From a virus: a DNA stretch of 64,000 bases. Made by a program: the position numbers and the translations under genes. Where the stretch lies: positions 1 through 64,000 of the IMG/VR virus record IMGVR_UViG_3300044742_000232. One strand, written 5' to 3'. The notes beneath the pieces were generated by a model, which was not told the origin of the DNA, did not search any database, and saw nothing but the letters and a program-made list of their open reading frames with translations. Position 1 is the first letter of the stretch. Each line of letters begins with the position of its first letter. This document shows, piece by piece, positions 1,427-19,579 of this stretch.

Positions 1427-3351
1427 ATGAAATCAGCCTCATATTGCTGCTCAACGATATCCATAGCTTCTTCTTGAGAAAATCCATTTTCAATTAGATC
1501 ATAGAATTCTTCAGTCGCTTGTTGCTCAATATCTTCTCCACGGAAAGCATTTGCCCAAGGCGGGCGAACACCCTTGCTTTTAGCTAATTTGCCATATCTA
1601 GATGAGGAAGCCATATTTGATTTAGCTCTTGATATTGCTGAATCTCTTTCGCTGGATAAGGCACTTGAAACACCAGCATGAACACCTTTTGCTATAGCTA
1701 CACCTCGCTCATGTTCTCCATGCGCCGCTGCAACAGCTTTACCAAGAGCCTTTTTATTACCACCTTGAGCTATCGCATCCAAGGCAGCTTTACCAACGGA
1801 GTGAGTAGCATCAGAGTGTTTTGGAACATTTCTTGCATGACTTGCTAAGGTAGAATCAATACCTTTAGCTTGATTTAGATTGCTCTCTGCATCTCTACTT
1901 TTACTATAAGACCGCGCAGCTAATTTATCGTGAAATTTTTGTCCGCCTAAAAGTCTTGGTCTGTTATCGCGTATGAAACTCCGAACATTGTTTCTTACAC
2001 TATTAAATGCCACTTTCGCATTACGCAACATGCCTGGACCAGCAGCAGCTTTTTTCGTAGCAGCTGGTGTAGACGCTGGTTTAGACCAATATAAAGCGCG
2101 ACTTTGTGGAACAAGTGATCTATTCTTTGCAATTGGCGGTTTTGGTTTGTTGGCGCTTAGTCTTGGATCAGGCATAGAACCAGCACCTTTTTGCTTTTGC
2201 ATAAATTGCTCTGCTAGCTCTGCATAACCATCCAAGAACCCTTCCTGAATCGCGTTCTTGGCGTTCTGGAGGCGCTGTGGACGAAGATTCCCAGTCCTGG
2301 ACCATTTATGAAGGCGAAGGTGATAATCATCAAAATCGCCTGAAAGGATATCAACAATCTCATCTTCTGTGAAAACTTTAGCTAGATCATCCACAACAGC
2401 ATAGATATAATCTTCTGTCATAAGTGATGTGGTATCAGCCATTCTTGTCGCGGACGGCACAAAGTAATGAGACGTAGTATCTTTTGGCTCGTCTTCTTTG
2501 TCCTTCTTGTCTTCTTTATCTATTTCTGTCTTTACCATTAGTAATTCTTCCTCATTTAGGGATAAACCGTCCTCAAATATACTTATAATTTCTTCTTGAC
2601 TAAAGCCTTCTAAAAGCATGTCTTTTACCATGGGAGCAAAGTCTTCATCCCAAGTTTTATCTAATCCTTGTTTCAAGCGCCTTGCTTTTCTCATATGGAA
2701 TTCTGCCGCCTTTCTATAAGCTTTAGCTTTCTTTTTCCTTGCTTTCATTATTGCCGATGACTCATCATTTGACATGTTTTTCATGACTTTTTCACGAGGA
2801 ACATGTTTGCCGAGTTTACCTGTTTTTTTATCTTTTGCCTGCACATGCGTCAATTTTCTTGCTTGCTGGCGTGATTTTCTTGCAGTATGGACATGCAGAG
2901 AAATCTTTGCTTTGATTCCCTCTTCTCTATCCATAGCATCTTGCGCGTCCTTAACAGCACGCTTTCTAGCTACAGCTTTTTCAGCGGCATCTTGATATAA
3001 GGAAGCCAATTTCATATGTTTTTGGATATGCTCATCATTTTCAGCTGGAGCTTTGAGCCGAATTATAATACTCTGAGCTTTCTTGGGGTCCATCATTTTT
3101 TCATGCGTCAGATGCTTGAAAAACGCCTTCTCATTGGCTGGCTTTAGACCTTTGCCATAATAGGTTTTAGAGGGAGCATGGTAAGCATATTCACCTTGAG
3201 GGTCTTGAAATGCTTTATGATTCTTCCATTTATTATAGAGGGTTTGCGCACCAAGAACCAACGCGCCTCCAGCCAAACCAAGGAGAGGATGCGCCTCGTC
3301 TAATCGCTGTTTTTGTCTGACTGTCTTTATGACAATCTTAGAAACTGTCAT
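1408..3351 (-). CDS. Large Lys/Ala-rich late protein with repeated acidic helix motif
   Basis: 647 residues in the zero frame. After a short hydrophobic stretch (LLGLAGGALVLGAQ, residues 23-36) come long Lys/Arg/Ala-rich helical segments. Three related acidic motifs occur: LLEGFSQEEIISIFEDG, AKVFTEDEIVDILSGD and LIENGFSQEEAMDIVEQQ, the last at the C terminus. The start overlaps the stop of the preceding gene (TAATG). No family recognised. The basic composition and late-promoter context suggest a virion or internal head protein, which is inference. The zero frame stops just after a slippery A-run. Confidence 0.75.
   Translation of the reverse strand: MTVSKIVIKTVRQKQRLDEAHPLLGLAGGALVLGAQTLYNKWKNHKAFQDPQGEYAYHAPSKTYYGKGLKPANEKAFFKHLTHEKMMDPKKAQSIIIRLKAPAENDEHIQKHMKLASLYQDAAEKAVARKRAVKDAQDAMDREEGIKAKISLHVHTARKSRQQARKLTHVQAKDKKTGKLGKHVPREKVMKNMSNDESSAIMKARKKKAKAYRKAAEFHMRKARRLKQGLDKTWDEDFAPMVKDMLLEGFSQEEIISIFEDGLSLNEEELLMVKTEIDKEDKKDKEDEPKDTTSHYFVPSATRMADTTSLMTEDYIYAVVDDLAKVFTEDEIVDILSGDFDDYHLRLHKWSRTGNLRPQRLQNAKNAIQEGFLDGYAELAEQFMQKQKGAGSMPDPRLSANKPKPPIAKNRSLVPQSRALYWSKPASTPAATKKAAAGPGMLRNAKVAFNSVRNNVRSFIRDNRPRLLGGQKFHDKLAARSYSKSRDAESNLNQAKGIDSTLASHARNVPKHSDATHSVGKAALDAIAQGGNKKALGKAVAAAHGEHERGVAIAKGVHAGVSSALSSERDSAISRAKSNMASSSRYGKLAKSKGVRPPWANAFRGEDIEQQATEEFYDLIENGFSQEEAMDIVEQQYEADFIKKKQS
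1415..1427 (-). other. Slippery A-run, candidate -1 frameshift site
   Basis: On the minus strand nine consecutive A residues precede GCAGAGTTAA. In the upstream frame the codons read ATA AAA AAA AAG CAG AGT TAA, which contains A AAA AAG, the heptamer used by bacterial dnaX for -1 frameshifting. Slipping back one base joins the 647-residue frame to the start-less frame downstream. A sequencing or natural indel in the homopolymer is the alternative. Confidence 0.5.
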
Positions 3352-4907
3352 TATTGACCTTTCTTGGTCCTAGCATTTTGAAACATCTTTCCACGACTGC
3401 GATTATTTTCCCATTTCTTTCTGTTCCAAAACATAGTTCTAGAACTTGGAGGAACGGCTCTTGGATCGTTTTTATAGTGATCTTGATGAGGTAGGTCTGA
3501 ATCGGCGGTGTCTGCCCCAATTTCCCAAGCTTTATGTAGCTCATCCCATCTATTAATATGTCCACCACGGGCAAGATAATAATCTACTCCATTATATTGG
3601 CGTCCTTTATCATCACGCACAATTTCAGGCTGTTGCTGAATAACTTTTGGTTCAGGCATCGGAGGAAGTGGTGGCATCGGAGGCGGTCTTTTTTGGGCCT
3701 CTCTACCTGTTTTTTCTCTTGGAATCAAAGTGCCTGGAGAAGGTGTAGCACTAATATTTCCTCCAGCTAGGCGCTTTCTAGCTCTTGCCAGGGTTTTAGT
3801 TTCTTGTGGTTTTGTTTCAACAGGCGTGAATGTTGTTGCTGATGGTGGCGCTTTCACAAGAGCTTTAGCAATAAATGCACGTTCCTTGGCCGTTAGTTTA
3901 GTTGGCTTTGGTGGCGGCGTTGGTTTTGGAGCTAGTGTTTTTGCAGCTTTAGTTTTACCCTTTGCCTTTGGTTTCTTAGGTTTCGCTTGGGGGGCTGGTT
4001 TCTTTTTCTTAGTCGCAGCAAGTGCTTCTCTTTGAGATTTGACTTGAGCGCGAATGGCTTCAAGCTCGGCTTTGTGTTTCGCAGCAACAGCGGCTCGCTC
4101 TTGGCGTCTTACTTTTGCATGATACTGCTTTACACTGTCCCATTTTTTACGCTCTTGCACTGCGGTTTTCAAAGTTCTGGCAAGAGTATAAGGATGAAGA
4201 GTGCTCGCCGCAGCTTCAAATTCTCTTAGTTTTGGTTTTTTCTTACCACCCATAATATGCTTATGAATAATTTCTTTAGCATTAGTGGGCTTATTCTGTT
4301 TTGTACGTCTGGCACGTTCTGCACGGGCTTGCTGGCCAATTGAGTCCTTGCGTCTGGCTAGCTGTCCAAGCGTTCTTGCTGGTGTTCTTGCATTGACCAC
4401 ATAATTCTTTGCGGCTTCATCCAAACTCTCTTGTTGAGAAGCACGTTTGGCAGCAAAAAGTGGCGCATAATGCTCAACATATTTGTGCATAAATGAATTG
4501 AGATGAGGACCACCCTCTTGAGTAACATTATTAGGTTGCCAACCCTGACGATGCATTTCAACATTAGCAAGGGTAGCAGCATGTCTTAGAGTTGGAGGAA
4601 TGTCATGAACACCATCATGTAGATTATTTGAGTTCATTCTTTGATGCATTCTATTGACATGGTTCATCAGATGAGGAACATCACGCCAACGTCTTGCAGT
4701 TGAGTGTTGTTTTACTACTGGAGCAGATGCTTTTTGATCTACATGAAAAAATCGGCTACGTCTTATATCTCTAGCTTCAGCAATTCGTCTTATTAACGTT
4801 CGCGCCGCACTTGATTGATCCTTGTTTGAGGTGTCATCAATTGTTGGTTCTAAGTTTATAAAAGATTGTTGTTTCACTTGTCGCCTTTTTTTTGCCTTCT
4901 TTTTCAT
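3351..4907 (-). CDS. Lys/Pro/Ala-rich basic late protein
   Basis: 518 residues starting MKKKAKKRRQVKQQSF, with ribosome site AAGGAAAAAAGA before ATG and a CTAAATA late promoter 26 bases upstream. Residues about 240-340 are almost pure Lys/Ala/Pro (many KPKKPKAKGK-like runs), and a poly-Pro stretch (RPPPMPPLPPMPEP) follows. The last 100 residues look globular (NGVDYYLARGGHINRW). The composition resembles DNA-condensing proteins but no family is recognised. It is head-to-tail with the 1408-3351 gene. Confidence 0.75.
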   Translation of the reverse strand: MKKKAKKRRQVKQQSFINLEPTIDDTSNKDQSSAARTLIRRIAEARDIRRSRFFHVDQKASAPVVKQHSTARRWRDVPHLMNHVNRMHQRMNSNNLHDGVHDIPPTLRHAATLANVEMHRQGWQPNNVTQEGGPHLNSFMHKYVEHYAPLFAAKRASQQESLDEAAKNYVVNARTPARTLGQLARRKDSIGQQARAERARRTKQNKPTNAKEIIHKHIMGGKKKPKLREFEAAASTLHPYTLARTLKTAVQERKKWDSVKQYHAKVRRQERAAVAAKHKAELEAIRAQVKSQREALAATKKKKPAPQAKPKKPKAKGKTKAAKTLAPKPTPPPKPTKLTAKERAFIAKALVKAPPSATTFTPVETKPQETKTLARARKRLAGGNISATPSPGTLIPREKTGREAQKRPPPMPPLPPMPEPKVIQQQPEIVRDDKGRQYNGVDYYLARGGHINRWDELHKAWEIGADTADSDLPHQDHYKNDPRAVPPSSRTMFWNRKKWENNRSRGKMFQNARTKKGQ

Positions 4908-5653: not shown

Positions 5654-5881
5654 TCATTTGAGTCCATCAAACTGCCCTTTATTGAATATTACAAGCTTGG
5701 CTATGATACCAAGCTGTGCTGTATAGCTATCCACAGCAAAAATCGCAGCGGTAGCCTCATGAATAAATGCTTCCTTGACGTTATGCTGCCGCAACACCTT
5801 TTGCAGGCGTGCGACGATGATCATGATATTCCCTTCTGTTCCGGGAACGTCACAGTTTAGGGGGATATCAAACCGAGGCAT
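5654..5881 (-). CDS. Small conserved-looking protein, unknown
   Basis: 75 residues starting MPRFDIPLNCDVPGTEG, with ribosome site AAGGAAAAAGC before ATG. The start overlaps the end of the upstream gene by 14 bases. Contains IMIIVARLQKVLRQHNVKEAFIHEATAAI, predicted mixed alpha/beta. No family recognised. Followed by an intrinsic terminator. Confidence 0.65.
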   Translation of the reverse strand: MPRFDIPLNCDVPGTEGNIMIIVARLQKVLRQHNVKEAFIHEATAAIFAVDSYTAQLGIIAKLVIFNKGQFDGLK

Positions 5882-6218
5882 GCTTTTTCCTTTCATTCAA
5901 TATATACTCCAATTGAGTTGCCAATTTAGAAAACGCAATATGACCTCCATCATTTTGTTCCATAATATTTCCAACTTCCATAGTTGATAGACCAGTCATT
6001 TTCGCAACCTCAACTAGAGCATCAGCCACAGAATGTATCACATGAGCTTTGTGATCCAAAAACAGCCCAATAGGACAATAAAATGGACCTTCTTCATATC
6101 CGAATTCACCACTATTATGGGGACGATTTAGTAGTTTCATGGTCCCGAAACATTGTTTATAATCTCCATTGAGAAGATCAATCCAGGCTTGAAGATTTGT
6201 CTCTTGTTCCGGTGTCAT
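5868..6218 (-). CDS. Small Cys protein with C-P-I-G motif
   Basis: 116 residues from MTPEQETNLQAWIDLL, chosen because AGGAAATTGG precedes this ATG and the longer frame would overlap the upstream gene. The YCPIGLFLDHKAHVI motif recalls the CAIG/CAVG motif of the small proteins at 36-37 kb, so it may belong to the same loose family (DUF6197-like). Function unknown. Confidence 0.65.
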   Translation of the reverse strand: MTPEQETNLQAWIDLLNGDYKQCFGTMKLLNRPHNSGEFGYEEGPFYCPIGLFLDHKAHVIHSVADALVEVAKMTGLSTMEVGNIMEQNDGGHIAFSKLATQLEYILNERKKHASV

Positions 6219-6312
6219 TTTTTCCAATTTCCTCATAAAAAAAGGTTGCACAGTCCAAAGGAGAACCATGCAACCTTTCCACCACCGCAGACCAAACGCC
6301 CTCAGGAAACTC

Positions 6313-6537
6313 CTAGCCGCCAACGAGATTGGGAATGAGAATCGTTTCCTCTTTCATCTCATCAAAGTCACTAACAGGCCGACCTGACCCTTTTGGGTTT
6401 GGGTCCATTGCCCGATGTGTTTTTTTCCAAAGCACCAAGTCATTGAAAAGTTCCCTGGCTTCCTGCAACTGTTTTGGGTTGTCTAAAGCAAATTGACTGT
6501 CCCCAGACCCATCTAGAACTTTCATCACGCGCGCCAT
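6313..6537 (-). CDS. Small acidic protein, unknown
   Basis: 74 residues, MARVMKVLDGSGDSQFALDN. A strong ribosome site (TTTTAGGAGAAATCTGAT before ATG) supports it. Predicted helical, no family recognised. Confidence 0.65.
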   Translation of the reverse strand: MARVMKVLDGSGDSQFALDNPKQLQEARELFNDLVLWKKTHRAMDPNPKGSGRPVSDFDEMKEETILIPNLVGG

Positions 6538-6568
6538 ATCAGATTTCTCCTAAAAGAAGGTTAGAGAA

Positions 6569-6600
6569 GATGAGCGGAGAGAGGGAACACCCCGCTCATC
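6569..6600. other. Perfect 9-bp hairpin between genes
   Basis: GATGAGCGG and CCGCTCATC flank a 14-base loop in the gap between the genes ending at 6641 and starting at 6537. On the minus strand the stem is followed by a pyrimidine-rich but not pure T run, so it may be a weak terminator or a processing or leader hairpin. Confidence 0.45.
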
Positions 6601-6640
6601 TAACGGAGGCTTGTCCTGCTAGGGACGCTAGACATTTACC

Positions 6641-6853
6641 CTAAGAGCCTAAGGCTGTCAAGACAGTTTGTTCATCTTTTTTTAAAAAATATGCTGGTGT
6701 TTCTCCCTGAAAACCACCTGATTTATTGAGATGTTGACATAGTTTGTAAGCCATGTTTTGATTATTATTTTTATAGACACGAATAACTTGATTTGTTTTC
6801 TTCTCAACAATGCAGACTTTTCTTTTGCCTATTTTTGTCACTTCATACTTCAT
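6641..6853 (-). CDS. Small basic protein, unknown
   Basis: 70 residues, MKYEVTKIGKRKVCIVEKKT. Its start overlaps the helicase stop (TAATG), so it is translated in the same message. Predicted beta-strand N terminus. No family recognised. Confidence 0.65.
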   Translation of the reverse strand: MKYEVTKIGKRKVCIVEKKTNQVIRVYKNNNQNMAYKLCQHLNKSGGFQGETPAYFLKKDEQTVLTALGS

Positions 6854-8241
6854 TATTTGACATCCTCAAAAATACTTTTATCCATAGTTTCCCAATCCAG
6901 TTTTTGTCCAAAAGTAGTGGCATCCATCACGGGTCTTTCATCTATGATATCATCCTGTGCTGATTGTTCCGTGTCATAAAGTCTCATTTTTTTCTTATCA
7001 ACGCCAACCATAAATTTCCTGAAGTAATTTGGGTCCGAATATCTGTTCTTTAGCTGTTTCACCATGATTTGATTCATTTTTTCCAAGTCTTCGTTCGTGA
7101 TCAGAGTAAACATCAGATCGGTTGTTTGAGGAAGACCAACGCTATCGGAAGTGTTCTCCATATCAGGATCAGAGTTACGAAACCCTTGTCTATTGATTTG
7201 TGTCGCTGTAAAAACTGGAAGATTATATTCAACTGCAATACCCCGTAGTTCTTCCGCAACAGATTTCATATACATGTAAGTGTTGACATTACTCCCATAC
7301 TTCATTCTTGAAGACGCACAGATGTTTAAGTAGTCCACATAAATGATATCAGGAACAAAGTTCTTTTTGAGCTTCAATTCATCCAGGAGATGCCGGAAGT
7401 GATTAGAGCCAGCGCCAGAAGTTGGATACTCCTTGATAATTAGCTTTCCGTCTGTCTTCTGTTTCACTTTCATGATCTTGGCTGTATATTCTTCCTTGGA
7501 GAGCTTTTCTAGGTCTTCAATAGGAACATCCAACAAGTTTGCATCAATACGTTCGGCAATCCGTTCTTGAGCCATTTCTAGAGTGATATAAAGAACGTTA
7601 TGACCAGCTGAAAGATTGGCTGAAGCAAAGTGACAAAGAAACAGCGACTTACCGACCCCTGGAGGAGCCATAACAATAGTAAGAGTTTTTCTTGCAACTC
7701 CCCCGCGCGTAACTCTATTGAAAGTGTCTAGATCAAATGGTATCTTGTTTTCAGTTAGATGATACAATTCCCAACGTGAAACATAGTCATCAAAGAAGTC
7801 ATGACCGATTGCAGGATCGAAGGAAACGGCAAGAGCATCGGCAAAAAGTTTTGTAAGAACACCTTTATCCCCGAGCTTTCCAGCTTTATCATCAAGATAA
7901 GTAATTGATTTGCGAATGACATTATAGAGCGCCTTTTCTTTGCAAAATTCTTCCGTTCGCTTTACTAACCAATCAAGTTCAGTTTTCTCAGACACTTCCA
8001 GACTGCCAATTGTGGTTTGGCAGTCTGTGAAGTCTTCCTTTGATAAGTTTTCTTGGTTCGCTAGGTCTATATAGCAAATTTCTTTAGATGGTAGTGAATT
8101 GTATTTTGTTATAAAGTCCTGAACGATTGTGAATATAAGTTTGTCTGCGTTCTTATGAAAATACTCCGATTTCAAATAGGGGATTACTTTTCTAGCATAT
8201 TCCTCGTTGTGGAGGAGATGTGAAAGAATCAAATTTTCCAA
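6853..8241 (-). CDS. 41: Replicative DNA helicase, T4 gp41 type (DnaB-like)
   Basis: 462 residues, the length expected for gp41. The N-terminal helical domain is followed by a RecA-type helicase core with Walker A APPGVGKSLFL near residue 190, Walker B-like PDIIYVDYLNI, and FTATQINRQGFR. It unwinds DNA ahead of the fork as a hexamer and loads the primase. It is followed by a small gene with overlapping start and preceded by a nucleotide pyrophosphohydrolase, matching a replication operon that also holds UvsX. Confidence 0.95.
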   Translation of the reverse strand: MENLILSHLLHNEEYARKVIPYLKSEYFHKNADKLIFTIVQDFITKYNSLPSKEICYIDLANQENLSKEDFTDCQTTIGSLEVSEKTELDWLVKRTEEFCKEKALYNVIRKSITYLDDKAGKLGDKGVLTKLFADALAVSFDPAIGHDFFDDYVSRWELYHLTENKIPFDLDTFNRVTRGGVARKTLTIVMAPPGVGKSLFLCHFASANLSAGHNVLYITLEMAQERIAERIDANLLDVPIEDLEKLSKEEYTAKIMKVKQKTDGKLIIKEYPTSGAGSNHFRHLLDELKLKKNFVPDIIYVDYLNICASSRMKYGSNVNTYMYMKSVAEELRGIAVEYNLPVFTATQINRQGFRNSDPDMENTSDSVGLPQTTDLMFTLITNEDLEKMNQIMVKQLKNRYSDPNYFRKFMVGVDKKKMRLYDTEQSAQDDIIDERPVMDATTFGQKLDWETMDKSIFEDVK

Positions 8242-14577: not shown

Positions 14578-15016
14578 TTTCAAAATTTGGGGCTGCCAAC
14601 TCTTTTGTCATTAATATCCAATCGCCATGAAATCCAACCGGGAGAAATCCACGTTTCTGAAAAAGTTCATTCTCTTTCGTCATCAACATAACGAAAGTTC
14701 CCCCTAATTTCTTAATTTCTTCCAAACGTTTTTCTGTGAGAAGACGTGCAATACCTTTATTTCTTTCCTCCTTGTCAACAACGCATCCATTTAGCTCATA
14801 AACGCCATGCAAAATGTGGCTCTGTATAAAGCCAGCAAATCCAATGACAAACTTCATTTTATCTACTGCCACATAATATTCTGGCTTCCAAGAAGAGTTG
14901 TCAAATGTCGTGTTTACTTCAGCGAAGATTCTATCTGCTACGTCCGTGCCCCATTCATTATAGAGCAAACGATAGATATCAGGAGTATCAATGATCTGTG
15001 CTTTTCGGATGATCAT
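14570..15016 (-). CDS. GNAT-family N-acetyltransferase
   Basis: 148 residues. ELNGCVVDKEERNKGIARLLTEKRLEEIKKLG holds motif A (the acetyl-CoA pyrophosphate loop, RNKGIA). The C-terminal FQKRGFLPVGFHGDWILM matches motif B. The acceptor is unknown. The gene overlaps both neighbours, RNA ligase upstream and polymerase downstream. Confidence 0.8.
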   Translation of the reverse strand: MIIRKAQIIDTPDIYRLLYNEWGTDVADRIFAEVNTTFDNSSWKPEYYVAVDKMKFVIGFAGFIQSHILHGVYELNGCVVDKEERNKGIARLLTEKRLEEIKKLGGTFVMLMTKENELFQKRGFLPVGFHGDWILMTKELAAPNFENV

Positions 15017-15645
15017 GTTTTCACTCCATTCTTAATGACTTTACTTGCAAACCAATGTTTTTGTTGGTCACTGACATGGTTTGACCGCACCCACTTAGCA
15101 CAATGACAGTGGAAGGTGTCAAGATAAATTTCGTCTGTCCTACGAACAACAAAGCCTTCCTGAGTCTTTAGATTTAGCTTAGCTGCAACTGACGTTAGAG
15201 CCTCAAAAGAAAAAGGGCCGCGATAAAGAACAGGAACAAGGGCAAATTCATGCTCTGTGCAATATTTTACTGTGTCATCCCAAGAAAAACACTCATTTTC
15301 TTTCCAGACAGAATGGACATAAAAATAGGACACCAAATCCTTGTAATGGATTGTGTGTTGAGCATACATATTTTCTCCGCAAACACGGATATCTTTTTCA
15401 ATCACTGATCTTTTCTTTGCCCAAAAAGCTGCCATCCAATCGCGGGATTCGTGCTTTCTGATGCCATTGATAGAACGAGCGTGCCAGTGATCACTATAGA
15501 GTGTCGTGTTCTCTCCATCCATTTTTTCAGTGCAAACAATTTCTTCTGAACGAAGATTATCAATGTCTATGAGTTTTTCATCATCATAGGCATAACCTGG
15601 AGAAAAGGGGAGATGTGGAGTTCTGGGATATTTCACACTGCTCAT
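15013..15645 (-). CDS. RNA ligase (nucleotidyltransferase ligase family)
   Basis: About 210 residues. Motif I is EKMDGENT, with the Lys that takes AMP. HARSINGIRK, the motif III-like SYFYVHSVWKENECF, motif IV EGFVVRR and motif V HCAKWVRSN follow. It seals RNA 5'-phosphate/3'-OH ends with ATP, probably repairing tRNAs cut by host defence nucleases. The second ATG (15645) is preferred because AGGA lies about 10 bases before it. See the other RNA-repair-like genes at 30-40 kb. Confidence 0.85.
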   Translation of the reverse strand: MSSVKYPRTPHLPFSPGYAYDDEKLIDIDNLRSEEIVCTEKMDGENTTLYSDHWHARSINGIRKHESRDWMAAFWAKKRSVIEKDIRVCGENMYAQHTIHYKDLVSYFYVHSVWKENECFSWDDTVKYCTEHEFALVPVLYRGPFSFEALTSVAAKLNLKTQEGFVVRRTDEIYLDTFHCHCAKWVRSNHVSDQQKHWFASKVIKNGVKT

Positions 15646-15650
15646 GTTTA

Positions 15651-16016
15651 TCATATCCTATTTAGGTCTAGATCACAAAGGAATTTAGCAGATTTCCAGT
15701 GAAATGCAAGGTGTTTATCGCCGCGATAGACTTCATTTCTGGGCACAATGTAAACAGAAACAAAGAACCCAAATTCATAGTCCATATAACGACGTGCATC
15801 ATCTGAGAACCATCTTTTGAGTTGTTTTATTGAATGAAACCCATAGTAAAACTCATTTGGATTTTTACCATCGGCTCTAATTTTTTGTTTTATTGTATAT
15901 GGTCCTGGACATCTTTTAGCATCATTTCTGTGTGGACCTGGACCGGCATGATATGGTCCTAATTTCTTTTGATTTTCTACTCGGTAAATTTTTGTGTATT
16001 TTCTACCATGAGTCAT
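15651..16016 (-). CDS. Basic protein, unknown
   Basis: 121 residues, MTHGRKYTKIYRVENQKKLG, with a Gly/Pro/His-rich part (GPYHAGPGPHRNDAKRCPGP) and YGFHSIKQLKRWFSDDARRY. No family recognised. Overlaps both neighbours by a few bases. Confidence 0.65.
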   Translation of the reverse strand: MTHGRKYTKIYRVENQKKLGPYHAGPGPHRNDAKRCPGPYTIKQKIRADGKNPNEFYYGFHSIKQLKRWFSDDARRYMDYEFGFFVSVYIVPRNEVYRGDKHLAFHWKSAKFLCDLDLNRI

Positions 16017-16226: not shown

Positions 16227-17651
16227 TTATTCCAAATTGTATCTATCAACCAGCAAAGTTTTTAGCATGATCTGATAGGGACTAAAAGCTTCCATATCAG
16301 CTGCCAGAACGGATTTCAGAATAGAAGGTGAAAATCCGCTCACTAGGGCTGTGCCATTAGCATCAAACTTCACCGGAACGTTGTCATAAGAATTGATGTT
16401 CCAGAAAGTTACTTTTGGCATTTTGTAACCAGCCTCGGTATATTTGCGATCAATCATCTCAATCGCAGAGTCATCATGCCGCACACAATGATCAAATTGC
16501 ATGTCCGACAGGATTAGAAGCATCTCAGGCATTTCTTCCTGAGGCACACGACCTTGAACAGCAGTTTGGAGAATCTTATCCAAAGCCGCATGTAGATTGG
16601 TGTTCATCTCCCATTTGGACTTCACCATCTGATCAATCTTCTGGAGGATATTACCCTTCAGATTGAGCAACTGAGGAACAGCAGAGAAAGTCAAGAACGT
16701 ATCCTTGAACTTACCCTTGTTCTTATCAGCGCAATAAAGACCAAGTGAAACCGCAACCTCAATAGCCGTAAGGCCAGACTTGCTCACTGGCGAAGTCATA
16801 GAGCCTGAAACGTCCACAAGAGGAAGAACGCTGACATCACCCATATAGTTGGGCAGTGCTTCCCATTGAGCCTGGATTAGGTTGTTCTCGGTTGAACCAT
16901 ACATAACTCCATAGGGAGAAATCTTACCCTTCAGAACGTCATAGGGATAAACAGCACCCGAATTGACTTTGACACCAACAGCGCGCTCTTCCTGTGGCTT
17001 CATTAGCTCCGCTACATACTCCGCATACTTTGGAGTATGACGAAAGAATGCTTTTTTGTAACGTGCCGCAGCAACAGAAGGCACATGAGAGAAATTGATA
17101 TTATCCCAATCTTTTGCGCACATCTGAGTTTCAACCACGCGCGTTAGCTCAACTAGAAGCTTGCGGTAGTATTTTGGGCTCACGCCAAGAAACTGCCGTA
17201 GCTCTTCCGCGTTGGGGCCTTTGCGGGGCATCCACTTGGCGCACAGACCGTTGCCACTAGCTAGAGCCTCCGACATGAGCGCAAAGGCTGCTTGGCGCAC
17301 CTCGGACGTTTCCAGGGCGAACAGATCGTCCCAGCGGCCAAGCTCTGGAGTCTTGGGAATGAGCTTTAGAACAGCGTCCCGGTCATTCTTCTCAAGGTAT
17401 TTGAGCAGATCACGGAATATCTGACGCTCACCGGCACCGCCACGGATATCACGCACCCATTGCGCAATTCTCAAAGCAATGTCGCGATCTTCAGCCATCG
17501 CAGCAGCAAAGGCCGGAACCACGTCTTTGCCCCTGGAAGCACCAATCTTGAAGAAAAGATCAACACAAGGATTTGCAGTAGATTTACGCGCCTTCATAAA
17601 GTTTTCAGTGCGCGCCTCTTGATTCAATACAGCATTCACAAACGTAGTCAT
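16227..17651 (-). CDS. DUF2828/TROVE-like vWA protein (Ro60-like)
   Basis: 474 residues from MTTFVNAVLNQEART (ribosome site GAAAGGATACTGACA). The N-terminal two thirds is helical with NPCVDLFFKIGASRG, WVRDIRGGAGERQIFRDLL and PELGRWDDLFAL, the signature of DUF2828/TROVE-type repeats. The C-terminal third is a von Willebrand A domain with MIDAS residues PLVDVSGSM, a Thr in EMNTNLHAALD, and LILSDMQFD. Proteins of this plan (Ro60, bacterial Rsr) are RNA-binding rings that use Y RNAs with tRNA-like parts. Directly upstream is a block of seven structured RNA modules, the last ending 30 bases before this start codon. Confidence 0.75.
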   Translation of the reverse strand: MTTFVNAVLNQEARTENFMKARKSTANPCVDLFFKIGASRGKDVVPAFAAAMAEDRDIALRIAQWVRDIRGGAGERQIFRDLLKYLEKNDRDAVLKLIPKTPELGRWDDLFALETSEVRQAAFALMSEALASGNGLCAKWMPRKGPNAEELRQFLGVSPKYYRKLLVELTRVVETQMCAKDWDNINFSHVPSVAAARYKKAFFRHTPKYAEYVAELMKPQEERAVGVKVNSGAVYPYDVLKGKISPYGVMYGSTENNLIQAQWEALPNYMGDVSVLPLVDVSGSMTSPVSKSGLTAIEVAVSLGLYCADKNKGKFKDTFLTFSAVPQLLNLKGNILQKIDQMVKSKWEMNTNLHAALDKILQTAVQGRVPQEEMPEMLLILSDMQFDHCVRHDDSAIEMIDRKYTEAGYKMPKVTFWNINSYDNVPVKFDANGTALVSGFSPSILKSVLAADMEAFSPYQIMLKTLLVDRYNLE

Positions 17652-17680: not shown

Positions 17681-17793
17681 AGAATGAAAAAATTCAAGGT
17701 TGTATTTTTATATACCCCTTGTTTGTGGAATTGAACCACTAATCTCCCGGTTAGGGAAGATATTTACCATTTTTGTTTTGCGGAACTCATTCT
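17681..17793 (-). repeat. RNA module 7
   Basis: Closing stem AGAATGAG/TTCATTCT (one G-U), then TTCCGCAAAACAAAAA. Inside is a tRNA T-arm-like GTGG-TTCAATT-CCAC and a stem-loop CTTCC/GGGAG. It ends 30 bases before the TROVE-like start codon. Confidence 0.7.
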
Positions 17794-17803
17794 AAAATCT
17801 TAC

Positions 17804-17873
17804 AGTATCACATCTTACTACCGATTTCAAGTCAGTTGTCTTGTTAAGACTTTTATGTTGCGGAAGTGATACT
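17804..17873 (-). repeat. RNA module 6
   Basis: Perfect 8-bp closing stem AGTATCAC/GTGATACT, then TTCCGCAACATAAAAG. The interior holds the hairpin GTCTT-AAC-AAGAC. Confidence 0.75.
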
Positions 17874-17885
17874 AAAAAATAACAC

Positions 17886-17975
17886 TGGTTGCCGGCGACT
17901 TTACGCTATCTTTCATCAGTTTGAATGGCACCCGAAGGCACCTTTGATTTGGTTTTGGTTTGCAGAAGGCAGCCA
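17886..17975 (-). repeat. RNA module 5
   Basis: Closing stem TGGCTGCC/GGCAACCA (one C-A mismatch), then TTCTGCAAACCAAAAC. The interior holds GGTGCC-TTCG-GGTGCC, a 6-bp stem with a UUCG tetraloop (17927-17942). Confidence 0.65.
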
Positions 17976-17990
17976 TAAACTTTTAGAAAC

Positions 17991-18158
17991 AGATTGTCTT
18001 TTTTTACTTGCGGTCGGCGCATTGCTCCTTTTTACGGGAACCGCTCGCCCCACCCTTTCACCATCACCTGTGAAAGCGTCATCAAAATACTCCGTGAAGA
18101 GGTCTTCTACCTTAGGACCGTTATTTTTCAAAAACTTTTTAGTTGCTGAAAACAATCT
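17991..18158 (-). repeat. RNA module 4, with 23S rRNA-like segment
   Basis: Closing stem AGATTGTT/GACAATCT (one G-U), then TTCAGCAACTAAAAAG. This is the largest module (168 bases). It contains CTTTCAC/GTGAAAG and GGTC/GACC stems and, at 18107-18124, ATAACGGTCCTAAGGTAG, identical to the universally conserved helix 69-71 region of bacterial 23S rRNA. Confidence 0.7.
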
Positions 18159-18174
18159 AAAAAAGGTATATATC

Positions 18175-18267
18175 AGCATCATATAAGTTGCCGATTTGAA
18201 CGGCTCCTTCTGATTAAAAGTCAGATGCTCTACCATTGAGCTAGTTTTTGTTTGCGGAAATGATGCT
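18175..18267 (-). repeat. RNA module 3, tRNA-Lys-like
   Basis: Perfect closing stem AGCATCAT/ATGATGCT, then TTCCGCAAACAAAAAC. Inside is a D-arm GCTC-AATGGTA-GAGC, an anticodon arm TCTGA-CTTTTAA-TCAGA (anticodon TTT) and a T-arm GCCG-TTCAAAT-CGGC. There is no ordinary 7-bp acceptor stem and no encoded CCA, so this is a tRNA mimic rather than a working tRNA. Confidence 0.75.
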
Positions 18268-18286
18268 AAATTCTATTTATATCAAC

Positions 18287-18342
18287 TGGATAACTTTTTT
18301 GCTAATGTTCGCAGCATTATTTTTGGTTGCTGAAATTATCCA
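18287..18342 (-). repeat. RNA module 2
   Basis: Closing stem TGGATAAT/GTTATCCA (one G-U), then TTCAGCAACCAAAAA. The interior has the short hairpin AATG/CATT. Confidence 0.7.
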
Positions 18343-18349
18343 AAATTCA

Positions 18350-18407
18350 CTGGTTGGGGTTTTACTATTATTACCAAATAATATTTTGTGCTGCTGTAGC
18401 CAACCAA
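18350..18407 (-). repeat. RNA module 1
   Basis: Closing stem TTGGTTGG/CCAACCAG (one G-U), then the divergent motif CTACAGCAGCACAAAAT. The interior has the hairpin ATTATT-TGGT-AATAAT. Confidence 0.6.
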
Positions 18408-18503
18408 GCTCTCATAATCTAACTTCTATATCGTTGTTTGTTACTCCAATAAGGAAATCAATTTAGATTGGCTTGATGACAAGTGAAGAACCAATCTGAC
18501 AAT

Positions 18504-18532
18504 AGGATACTATAGGCTAAAGGGAATGTCAA
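18504..18532 (-). promoter_or_regulatory. Host-type promoter of the structured RNA
   Basis: TTGACA, exactly 17 bases, then TATCCT on the minus strand, placed just after the stop of the vWA gene. The predicted start near 18497 coincides with the first arm of the leading hairpin. Confidence 0.65.
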
Positions 18533-18550: not shown

Positions 18551-19579
18551 TCAATTATTGACACCAGCCCAATATAACACGCGCGTCCCACTCTTCACCT
18601 TGCGGTTTGTGGACGTGGACTGAATGAATATGTCATAATCCCCATGGTCGCCGGGAATGAGCTTCACATTACCAAACTCAGGCAAACCGAGAAGTGATCG
18701 CGTTCCAGCCCCAGAATAAACCTTTTGTGTGGTCTTATTCTGAATACAGATTCTCTTATAATCTTGAACATTACTCTCAGTCTTTGACAACTCATAGAAA
18801 GCGCAACCTTTCTTATAAATTCCAATCTTATTCATGCAAAACTCAAAGATTTCTTTATCATGATCCTTGGAACCGACTTTCAAAAGTTGCACATCCTTAG
18901 TGATATCTTGAGCCACCTTTGCAACTGTGCTTGGTTTCACATCAGCTAGGTTGCTATAGAATGCTCTTGTGCTCTTCACACCTCGGGAGCGGGCTTCATA
19001 AAAGTCCTGAGTAGCAGCCATTGTAGTATAGGTGGCAGCTTCCATACCTTCTTCAGTTTGATCCCATTCCAGAATATTTCCTTCAGGAATTCCAAACTTC
19101 GCTAGGATTCTTTTCTGGCCTCTTGGAACGCGAAAAACAAAAGTCCAACGATCTGTGGCTTGAAGTTTGCGAATTTTTTCTCCTAGAATATAACCACTAA
19201 TCTTGGAAGAATTCTCTTCTCCATCAGTAATGATATTGAGAAGAAATATTACTTCTGGATCGTTTGCATCAGGTGCATCTTGTAGAATAGAAATAAGCTC
19301 ATTCACACTATCAAACAATGGCGTGGAATATCCATCTGTGATATATGAACGTTCTGGAATTGGTTGAAGAGCTACGATACTTGAATTGATCGTTTCTCTT
19401 TCAACTCTTCCTTGAGAACCAACACCACACTTGACTGTGCTAACGATTGTGTCTTGATTATTTTTGGACGCCGCTTCTTTGATAGCAGCAATCATATCAT
19501 TGTAATCTCTAGCTGCCGCTTTGGCTAGATGTGTCATAGAACGGCTGTGATCACGGCTAAAGCCTATGTAATTTTTCAT
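18551..19579 (-). CDS. von Willebrand A domain protein
   Basis: 342 residues. The N-terminal FSRDHSRSM gives the D-x-S-x-S MIDAS (D10, S12, S14). TDGYSTPLFDSVNEL supplies the Thr and IITDGEENSSKISGY the last Asp. The C-terminal half (from about residue 200) is unassigned. It lies directly upstream of the seven-module RNA and the TROVE-like vWA gene, all on one strand, so a joint ribonucleoprotein role is inferred. A CTAAATA motif sits 48 bases upstream. Confidence 0.75.
   Translation of the reverse strand: MKNYIGFSRDHSRSMTHLAKAAARDYNDMIAAIKEAASKNNQDTIVSTVKCGVGSQGRVERETINSSIVALQPIPERSYITDGYSTPLFDSVNELISILQDAPDANDPEVIFLLNIITDGEENSSKISGYILGEKIRKLQATDRWTFVFRVPRGQKRILAKFGIPEGNILEWDQTEEGMEAATYTTMAATQDFYEARSRGVKSTRAFYSNLADVKPSTVAKVAQDITKDVQLLKVGSKDHDKEIFEFCMNKIGIYKKGCAFYELSKTESNVQDYKRICIQNKTTQKVYSGAGTRSLLGLPEFGNVKLIPGDHGDYDIFIQSTSTNRKVKSGTRVLYWAGVNN

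Follow-up and report, generated by a model that had tools for sequence, protein, structure and literature searches.

Chen and colleagues are said to have found in 2014 that over 250 species of bacteria and phages encode Y RNAs close to Ro60. Among described RNAs, the bacterial Y RNA YrlA is the nearest in kind to the element analyzed here, an array of seven small RNA modules (M1 to M7) on the minus strand of a phage sequence, directly 5' of the gene for a predicted Ro60-fold protein. The sequence comprises positions 1 to 64,000 of the IMG/VR record IMGVR_UViG_3300044742_000232, and this 64,000-nucleotide (nt) stretch is called the window below. Y RNAs in phages have already been reported (Sim and Wolin 2018, as cited in PMC7765460). 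For bacterial Y RNAs, a single mechanism has been demonstrated, that of the Rsr-Y RNA-PNPase particle of Deinococcus radiodurans (Chen 2013, as summarized in PMC7790460).

Judged from their sequence, the modules are tandem Y-RNA-like RNAs rather than GOLLD or ROOL. The sequence establishes the modules themselves, the covariation of their stems, the linkage to a Ro60-fold gene, the mimicry of tRNA and rRNA parts, and the swapping of loops.

Module architecture and stem covariation

The array proper occupied 18406–17681 on the minus strand and was flanked by a von-Willebrand-A-like gene (18551–19579) and the Ro60-like gene (17651–16227). Every module comprised an 8-nt 5' arm, UUCNGCAA (UACAGCA in M1) and then A-rich sequence, followed by an individual payload, a 3' arm, and a G. 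An earlier note, made from the letters of the window without database searches, had described seven 8-bp stems here, and all of them were located on the strand and in the place that it gave, with a closing stem of 8 bp in each module. It had also counted five imperfect pairs, four of them G-U, which was confirmed; the fifth is a C-A pair in M5. The motif that it placed after the 5' arm in six modules held in part: M2 to M7 share TTCNGCAA, and the terminal "NC" is present in only three of these. Its seventh, "divergent" module did not stand, as a one-base shift of register gives M1 the form TGGTTGGC-TACAGCA...CCCAACCA, and UACAGCA is a common variant among relatives. The block drawn by the note (17681–18497) was correct for the modules, its remaining part (18497–18407) being a leader with its own hairpin.

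The pairing of arms that differ in sequence, as claimed in the note, was evaluated in 80 IMG/VR loci fetched via the Ro60-like protein of the window. Motif occurrences upstream of the gene were collected without any pairing requirement (n = 128), and a downstream partner arm was present in 115 of them, whereas arms dealt at random found a partner in 17.8 cases on average and never in more than 25. An alignment of 42 short modules from other phages, with the window excluded, showed standard pairs at positions 1–7 throughout, double changes at six of the eight pairs, and G-U, U-G or non-canonical combinations at pair 8. The covariation score was 0.616, versus 0.188 after shuffling and at most 0.119 with slid partners. 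Pairing had been a condition for entering modules in this alignment, so the unbiased figure is that of the permutation test. A strict scan of whole loci yielded 251 forward and 11 reverse-strand matches, of which 149 fell in the 500 nt preceding the gene, and a module was present in 72 of the 73 related IMG/VR loci having at least 300 nt upstream.

A covariance model of the modules and a search of phage genomes, both proposed in the earlier note, were also carried out. The model, built from the 42-module alignment, recovered five of the seven window modules (M2, M6, M1 and M7, and M3 with filters off) and found modules in the cultured phages Aeromonas phage 4_4572 (L336; eight, at 3002–3971), Synechococcus phage BUCT-ZZ01, Listeria phage LMTA-57, and Campylobacter phage NCTC12673. 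Homologous blocks with compensatory changes thus occur in relatives, which answers one of the refuting conditions set in the earlier note. The sister phage L090, another contig, carries homologs of M1 to M6, and its outer stems show three double changes, at pair 4 of M1 (T-A in the window, C-G in L090) and at pairs 6 and 7 of M2.

These results bear on the alternative that the block is a cluster of captured, decaying phage tRNA genes between chance repeats. Intact tRNA genes are plentiful near the array in many relatives, as that alternative would have it, but stems that covary and arms that find their own partners contradict chance repeats. Phages of many hosts retain motif and spacing, payload hairpins have been re-paired and not lost to decay, and the window phage has one ordinary tRNA gene only; a degenerate tRNA cluster is therefore very improbable.

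Payloads resembling parts of tRNA and rRNA

The payloads differ from module to module, and E-values given here refer to the covariance model. M1 (18351–18406), TGGTTGGC TACAGCA ... CCCAACCA, holds a weak interior hairpin with the 7-nt loop ATTTGGT (E = 9.9e-6). M2 (18287–18342), TGGATAAT UUCAGCAA ... GTTATCCA, has an anticodon-arm-like hairpin, TAATG-CTGCGAA-CATTA (GCG; E = 1.1e-8). M3 (18175–18267), AGCATCAT UUCCGCAA ... ATGATGCT, contains D, anticodon and T arms resembling those of tRNA-Lys(UUU) without an acceptor stem (E = 1.1e-5, filters off); the Rfam tRNA model matched it at 18190–18243 with 47.1 bits, and ARAGORN called no tRNA gene there. M4 (17991–18158), AGATTGTT UUCAGCAA ... GACAATCT, is 168 nt long, has a homolog in L090, and includes an 18-nt segment of 23S rRNA sequence. 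M5 (17886–17975), TGGCTGCC UUCUGCAA ... GGCAACCA, consists of a UUCG-capped hairpin and further stems, of which the outer stem and the UUCG hairpin are kept in L090. M6 (17804–17873), AGTATCAC UUCCGCAA ... GTGATACT, combines an anticodon-arm-like hairpin, ACTGA-CTTGAAA-TCGGT (UGA), with a second small hairpin (E = 7.5e-6). M7 (17681–17793), AGAATGAG UUCCGCAA ... TTCATTCT, has a T-arm-like GTGG-TTCAATT-CCAC and two hairpins (E = 2.3e-5). Fold z-scores were −2.36 for M6 and −2.52 for M7. The tRNA-like and rRNA-like interiors reported in the earlier note are borne out.

Payload hairpins were counted in 196 distinct modules and in shuffled counterparts. Hairpins with five pairs and a 7-nt loop numbered 191 against 49 in shuffled sequences, while those with 6-nt loops numbered 98 against 50 and those with 8-nt loops 57 against 50. 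Anticodon-like loops occurred 94 times versus 5.5 (about 17-fold); some T-loops (TTCGAAT, for example) are among those counted. T-loops occurred 48 times versus 0.3 (more than 100-fold). Common payload loops bore UGA, UGU, UUU, CAU, UAU and UCU. In all three comparable anticodon arms, the loop is swapped between the window and L090 and the stem re-paired each time: GCG to GUA in M2, UUU to UAU in M3, and UGA to ACG in M6, with the D and T arms of M3 unchanged.

The 18 nt of M4 are identical to E. coli 23S rRNA from the 3' strand of helix 69 to helix 71. The longest match in 100 shuffles was 14 nt, and among the other modules of related loci none matches rRNA over such a length. When all viral contigs were scanned with a pattern for this segment behind GCAA, four stretches came up, in L090, L088, L089 and L091, the last without a module. 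L088 and L089 are two contigs of one other phage type, whose module has a perfect 8-bp stem, UUCUGCAA, and a 25-nt exact match to the same 23S segment, a case independent of M4. In L088 (2663–1600, minus strand), and alike in L089, a structured RNA region of very great length encloses a tRNA and a degenerate tRNA; Rfam families other than tRNA were not matched in it, and the 25-nt segment lies within a module-like closing stem.

An 11-nt match of M5 to 16S rRNA, GTGCCTTCGGG, falls inside the range of shuffled sequences, so 16S mimicry is not claimed. Modules with interiors of about 190–230 nt that look highly structured recur between phages (L007 5553, L010 5546, L008 5561, L012 401, L052 5342, L062 295, L053 5705, L065 5680 and L023 586), and in those scanned with Rfam, tRNA was the sole match.

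The Ro60-fold gene, its locus and a proposed role

The gene 3' of the array (16227–17651, minus strand, ATG at 17651) encodes a protein assigned to DUF7788 and DUF2828 by Pfam and to PHROG 850, named RNA-binding protein; Pfam TROVE (PF05731) did not match it. An AlphaFold2 model based on 33 relatives had a mean predicted local distance difference test score (pLDDT) of 74.9. The top seven Foldseek matches in PDB were all TROVE/Ro60 structures (9kop with E = 1.4e-7, 1yvr, 2i91, 9nep and 1yvp among them), at 12–16% identity and template modeling (TM) scores of about 0.4–0.5, which indicates a remote member of the Ro60 fold. The model has the helical-repeat ring and the von Willebrand A domain with a metal-ion-dependent adhesion site (MIDAS) that define this fold; the DxSxS signature is intact and the motif DVSGSM invariant. 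The product is accordingly a remote Ro60-fold protein, in keeping with the Ro60-like neighbor named in the earlier note. Homologs were found in 682 phage records, and among the papers available to the search none on phage DUF2828 was found.

Modules with the core C[AC]GCAA adjoin DUF2828 genes in phages of Aeromonas, Listeria, Enterococcus, Campylobacter, Mycobacterium and E. coli. One cultured carrier, Escherichia phage mistaenkt (L331, on E. coli K-12 MG1655), has modules around 5717–6987. Such modules also occur in bacterial contigs, mostly of Clostridia (75 forward, 14 reverse; E = 2.6e-8 with the covariance model in L343). In the bacterial genome contigs L339–L389, tandem modules that share a CAGCAA core and differ in the sequence of their arms stand upstream of DUF2828/DUF7788 genes. 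BUCT-ZZ01 and Cronobacter phage S13 have, downstream of the gene, entire tRNA genes into which the handle (the closing stem with its motif) is inserted as a capped hairpin. Complete tRNA genes with such an inserted capped handle, a permuted form of the module, were seen at L081 7575–7824 and L085 4908–5150 (e.g., CATTCT-GTAA-AGAATG-AATTCTGCAA). The former phage, which has module-bearing tRNAs, also gave an Rfam tmRNA_permuted match of 111.9 bits at L081 1780–2076.

Nearly every IMG/VR locus has a module whose 3' end lies 11–29 nt before the start codon of the Ro60-like gene, abutting the Shine-Dalgarno sequence, and in the window the 3' end of M7 is 29 nt from that codon. This placement would suit a cis switch in which the Ro60-like protein represses its own translation at the Shine-Dalgarno sequence through the gene-proximal module, the other modules being products. 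Two to eight modules exceed what such a switch needs, and in L331 and L333 the modules are downstream of the gene or within a tRNA cluster, so that we regard it as unlikely as the main role. It would be compatible with a function of the modules as decoys or as tethers, and as an addition to such a function autoregulation by the proximal module is likely.

Upstream of the array, a sigma-70-type promoter, TTGACA-17-TATCCT, is present at 18532–18504 (minus strand), as noted earlier, and both hexamers and the spacing of 17 are retained in L090 with a diverged spacer sequence. The leader (18407–18497, minus strand) includes the hairpin AGATTGG/CCAATCT (18497–18465) and a stretch conserved in L090, TTGATTTCCT-ATTGGAGTAA...GATATAGA, and the motif UUCNGCAA is absent from it. 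The leader stretch TTGATTTCCTTATTGGAGTAACAAACAACGATATAGA (18464–18420, minus strand) is strongly kept in L090, the hairpin before it differing in sequence. The von-Willebrand-A-like gene (18551–19579, minus strand; PHROG 26613), the 5' neighbor of the array, has a 79% identical counterpart preceding the array in L090, and in BUCT-ZZ01 a gene 32% identical to it lies just 3' of Ro60. Two open reading frames of 106 amino acids overlap the module block. M4 and its near-identical L090 homolog differ by a few substitutions and single-base indels, and the latter argue against coding, in agreement with the earlier statement that no protein frame explains the block.

We favor, at a probability of roughly 45%, the reading that the locus is a Y-RNA-like array whose handles are bound by the Ro60-like protein and whose mimic payloads serve as decoys. 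One promoter (18532–18504) would drive all seven RNAs, which would either make up the 5' portion of the Ro60-like transcript or be released from it by processing. In each module, the closing stem and UUCNGCAA would form the handle held by the Ro60-fold protein, a binding that we infer from the conserved linkage. The payload would copy a part of a host RNA, be it an anticodon arm, an acceptor-less tRNA body, a T arm, or 23S helix 69–71. During infection, the resulting Ro60-RNA particles may act as sponges for host enzymes that recognize anticodon arms and helix 69–71, with anticodon nucleases and other RNA-cleaving defenses as the first candidate targets. Rapid exchange of anticodon loops among relatives would be expected if targets vary by host. 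Competitive inhibition of an anticodon nuclease has been raised for YrlA (Hughes et al. 2020, PMC7790460).

Several observations weigh against a decoy role. M7 is without a 7-nt anticodon loop, the M1 loop is weak, and the GCG loop of M2 is no usual anticodon. M1, M5, most of M4 and the 150–230-nt interiors of relatives resemble no known target, and loose matches were plentiful in pattern searches for mimics of the sarcin-ricin loop and of the 16S decoding site, none of them a convincing module. No Ro60-like gene was detectable in either L088 or L089. An RNA ligase gene (PF09414) lies at 15013–15654 of the window, shortly downstream of the Ro60-like gene, and is shared with the sister contig L001; it was found in none of 29 other related IMG/VR contigs, and RtcB in one of 43 records, that of Listeria phage LMTA-57. 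As the ligase is not conserved among relatives, a link to RNA repair is not general and is not counted as support.

The structured interiors of relatives suit a different function, in which payloads are tethers or adaptors that recruit host binders of tRNA or rRNA (a PNPase-type exoribonuclease, a modification enzyme, or the ribosome) to the Ro60 ring, forming a particle that would degrade, check or repair RNA in infection like the D. radiodurans Rsr-Y RNA-PNPase. Tethering is the mechanism on record for a bacterial Y RNA, as cited above, a tRNA-like domain is conserved in many relatives, and their large interiors resemble docking elements more than simple baits. A single partner leaves the many anticodon loops and their quick exchange between sister phages unexplained, and we hold this role to be possible, though somewhat unlikely.

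If the decoy reading is right, phages and some bacteria may stock several Ro60-based decoy modules with interchangeable anticodons, each baited for a different RNA-cleaving defense by an anticodon arm or 23S helix 69–71, swapping baits as defenses change, as a general RNA counter-defense; this wider proposal is tentative and rather doubtful. Phage Y RNAs were noted before with their function left open, and the payloads here are readable, many being anticodon arms whose type can be named. Two unrelated phage lineages have as payload one and the same universally conserved segment of 23S, and these two features together give concrete, testable targets. The linkage ties 682 phage records with DUF2828/DUF7788 "RNA-binding proteins", together with bacterial contigs, to one class of RNA missed by annotation, and could give Ro60 particles a part in the arms race around cleavage of tRNA and rRNA.

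Comparison with known RNAs

An Rfam scan of the window matched tRNA only, with no GOLLD, ROOL, eukaryotic Y RNA or other family. The earlier note had named GOLLD or ROOL as the nearest known large phage RNAs. Phage origin and the large structured interiors in some relatives would speak for an RNA of that type. Neither family matched in the window, and relaxing the threshold over the array did not change this; GOLLD and ROOL are, like this array, large phage noncoding RNAs, whereas the plan here is one of many small, separate closed modules. A GOLLD- or ROOL-type RNA is thus hardly credible.

The note had also known of no described RNA with this plan, a claim that, given YrlA, is mistaken or at least incomplete. 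The modules share two features with Y RNAs in the broad sense: they adjoin a Ro60-fold gene, and they are closed by a stem formed from their ends and conserved as a helix. At least one RNA of the locus (M3) has the tRNA-like domain of bacterial Y RNAs. YrlA (RF02553; gathering score 69 bits) did not match in the window. The permuted-tRNA modules of relatives align over the whole YrlA model, with best scores of 36–48 bits (36.1 at L048 4925–5037; 47.8 in Enterococcus phage iF6), and as these lie below the cut-off the modules are not filed as YrlA. Like YrlA, they are closed by their own two ends, encoded beside a Ro60-fold gene, and furnished with a tRNA-like payload. They differ in that the handle is 8 bp plus UUCNGCAA rather than the YrlA consensus, that they are tandem with varied payloads (mostly bare anticodon arms or acceptor-less tRNA bodies, and one with 23S helix 69–71), and that the partner protein is DUF2828/DUF7788, not TROVE by Pfam.

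With the Rsr-Y RNA-PNPase of D. radiodurans, the locus shares a Ro60-fold ring protein and a Y RNA as the proposed working unit, but that particle uses a single Y RNA as a tether in place of several different modules, and we know of no array of differing tRNA or rRNA mimics there. The rsr-yrlBA-rtcBA operon of Salmonella likewise brings together Ro60, Y RNAs and an RNA ligase, the window ligase (PF09414) being neither RtcB nor conserved in relatives. Phages carry tRNA arrays and counter anticodon nucleases, as in the tRNA repair of T4 against PrrC; the modules resemble these in being phage-borne RNAs that have anticodon loops and plausibly belong to the same arms race, and differ in not being tRNAs, the acceptor stem being absent and replaced by the Ro60 handle. 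Phage Y RNAs adjoining Ro60, and the tRNA mimicry of such RNAs, were described before; as far as checked, the tandem arrays, the different handle, the partnership with a DUF2828 protein, the 23S payload and the interchange of anticodon arms are new.
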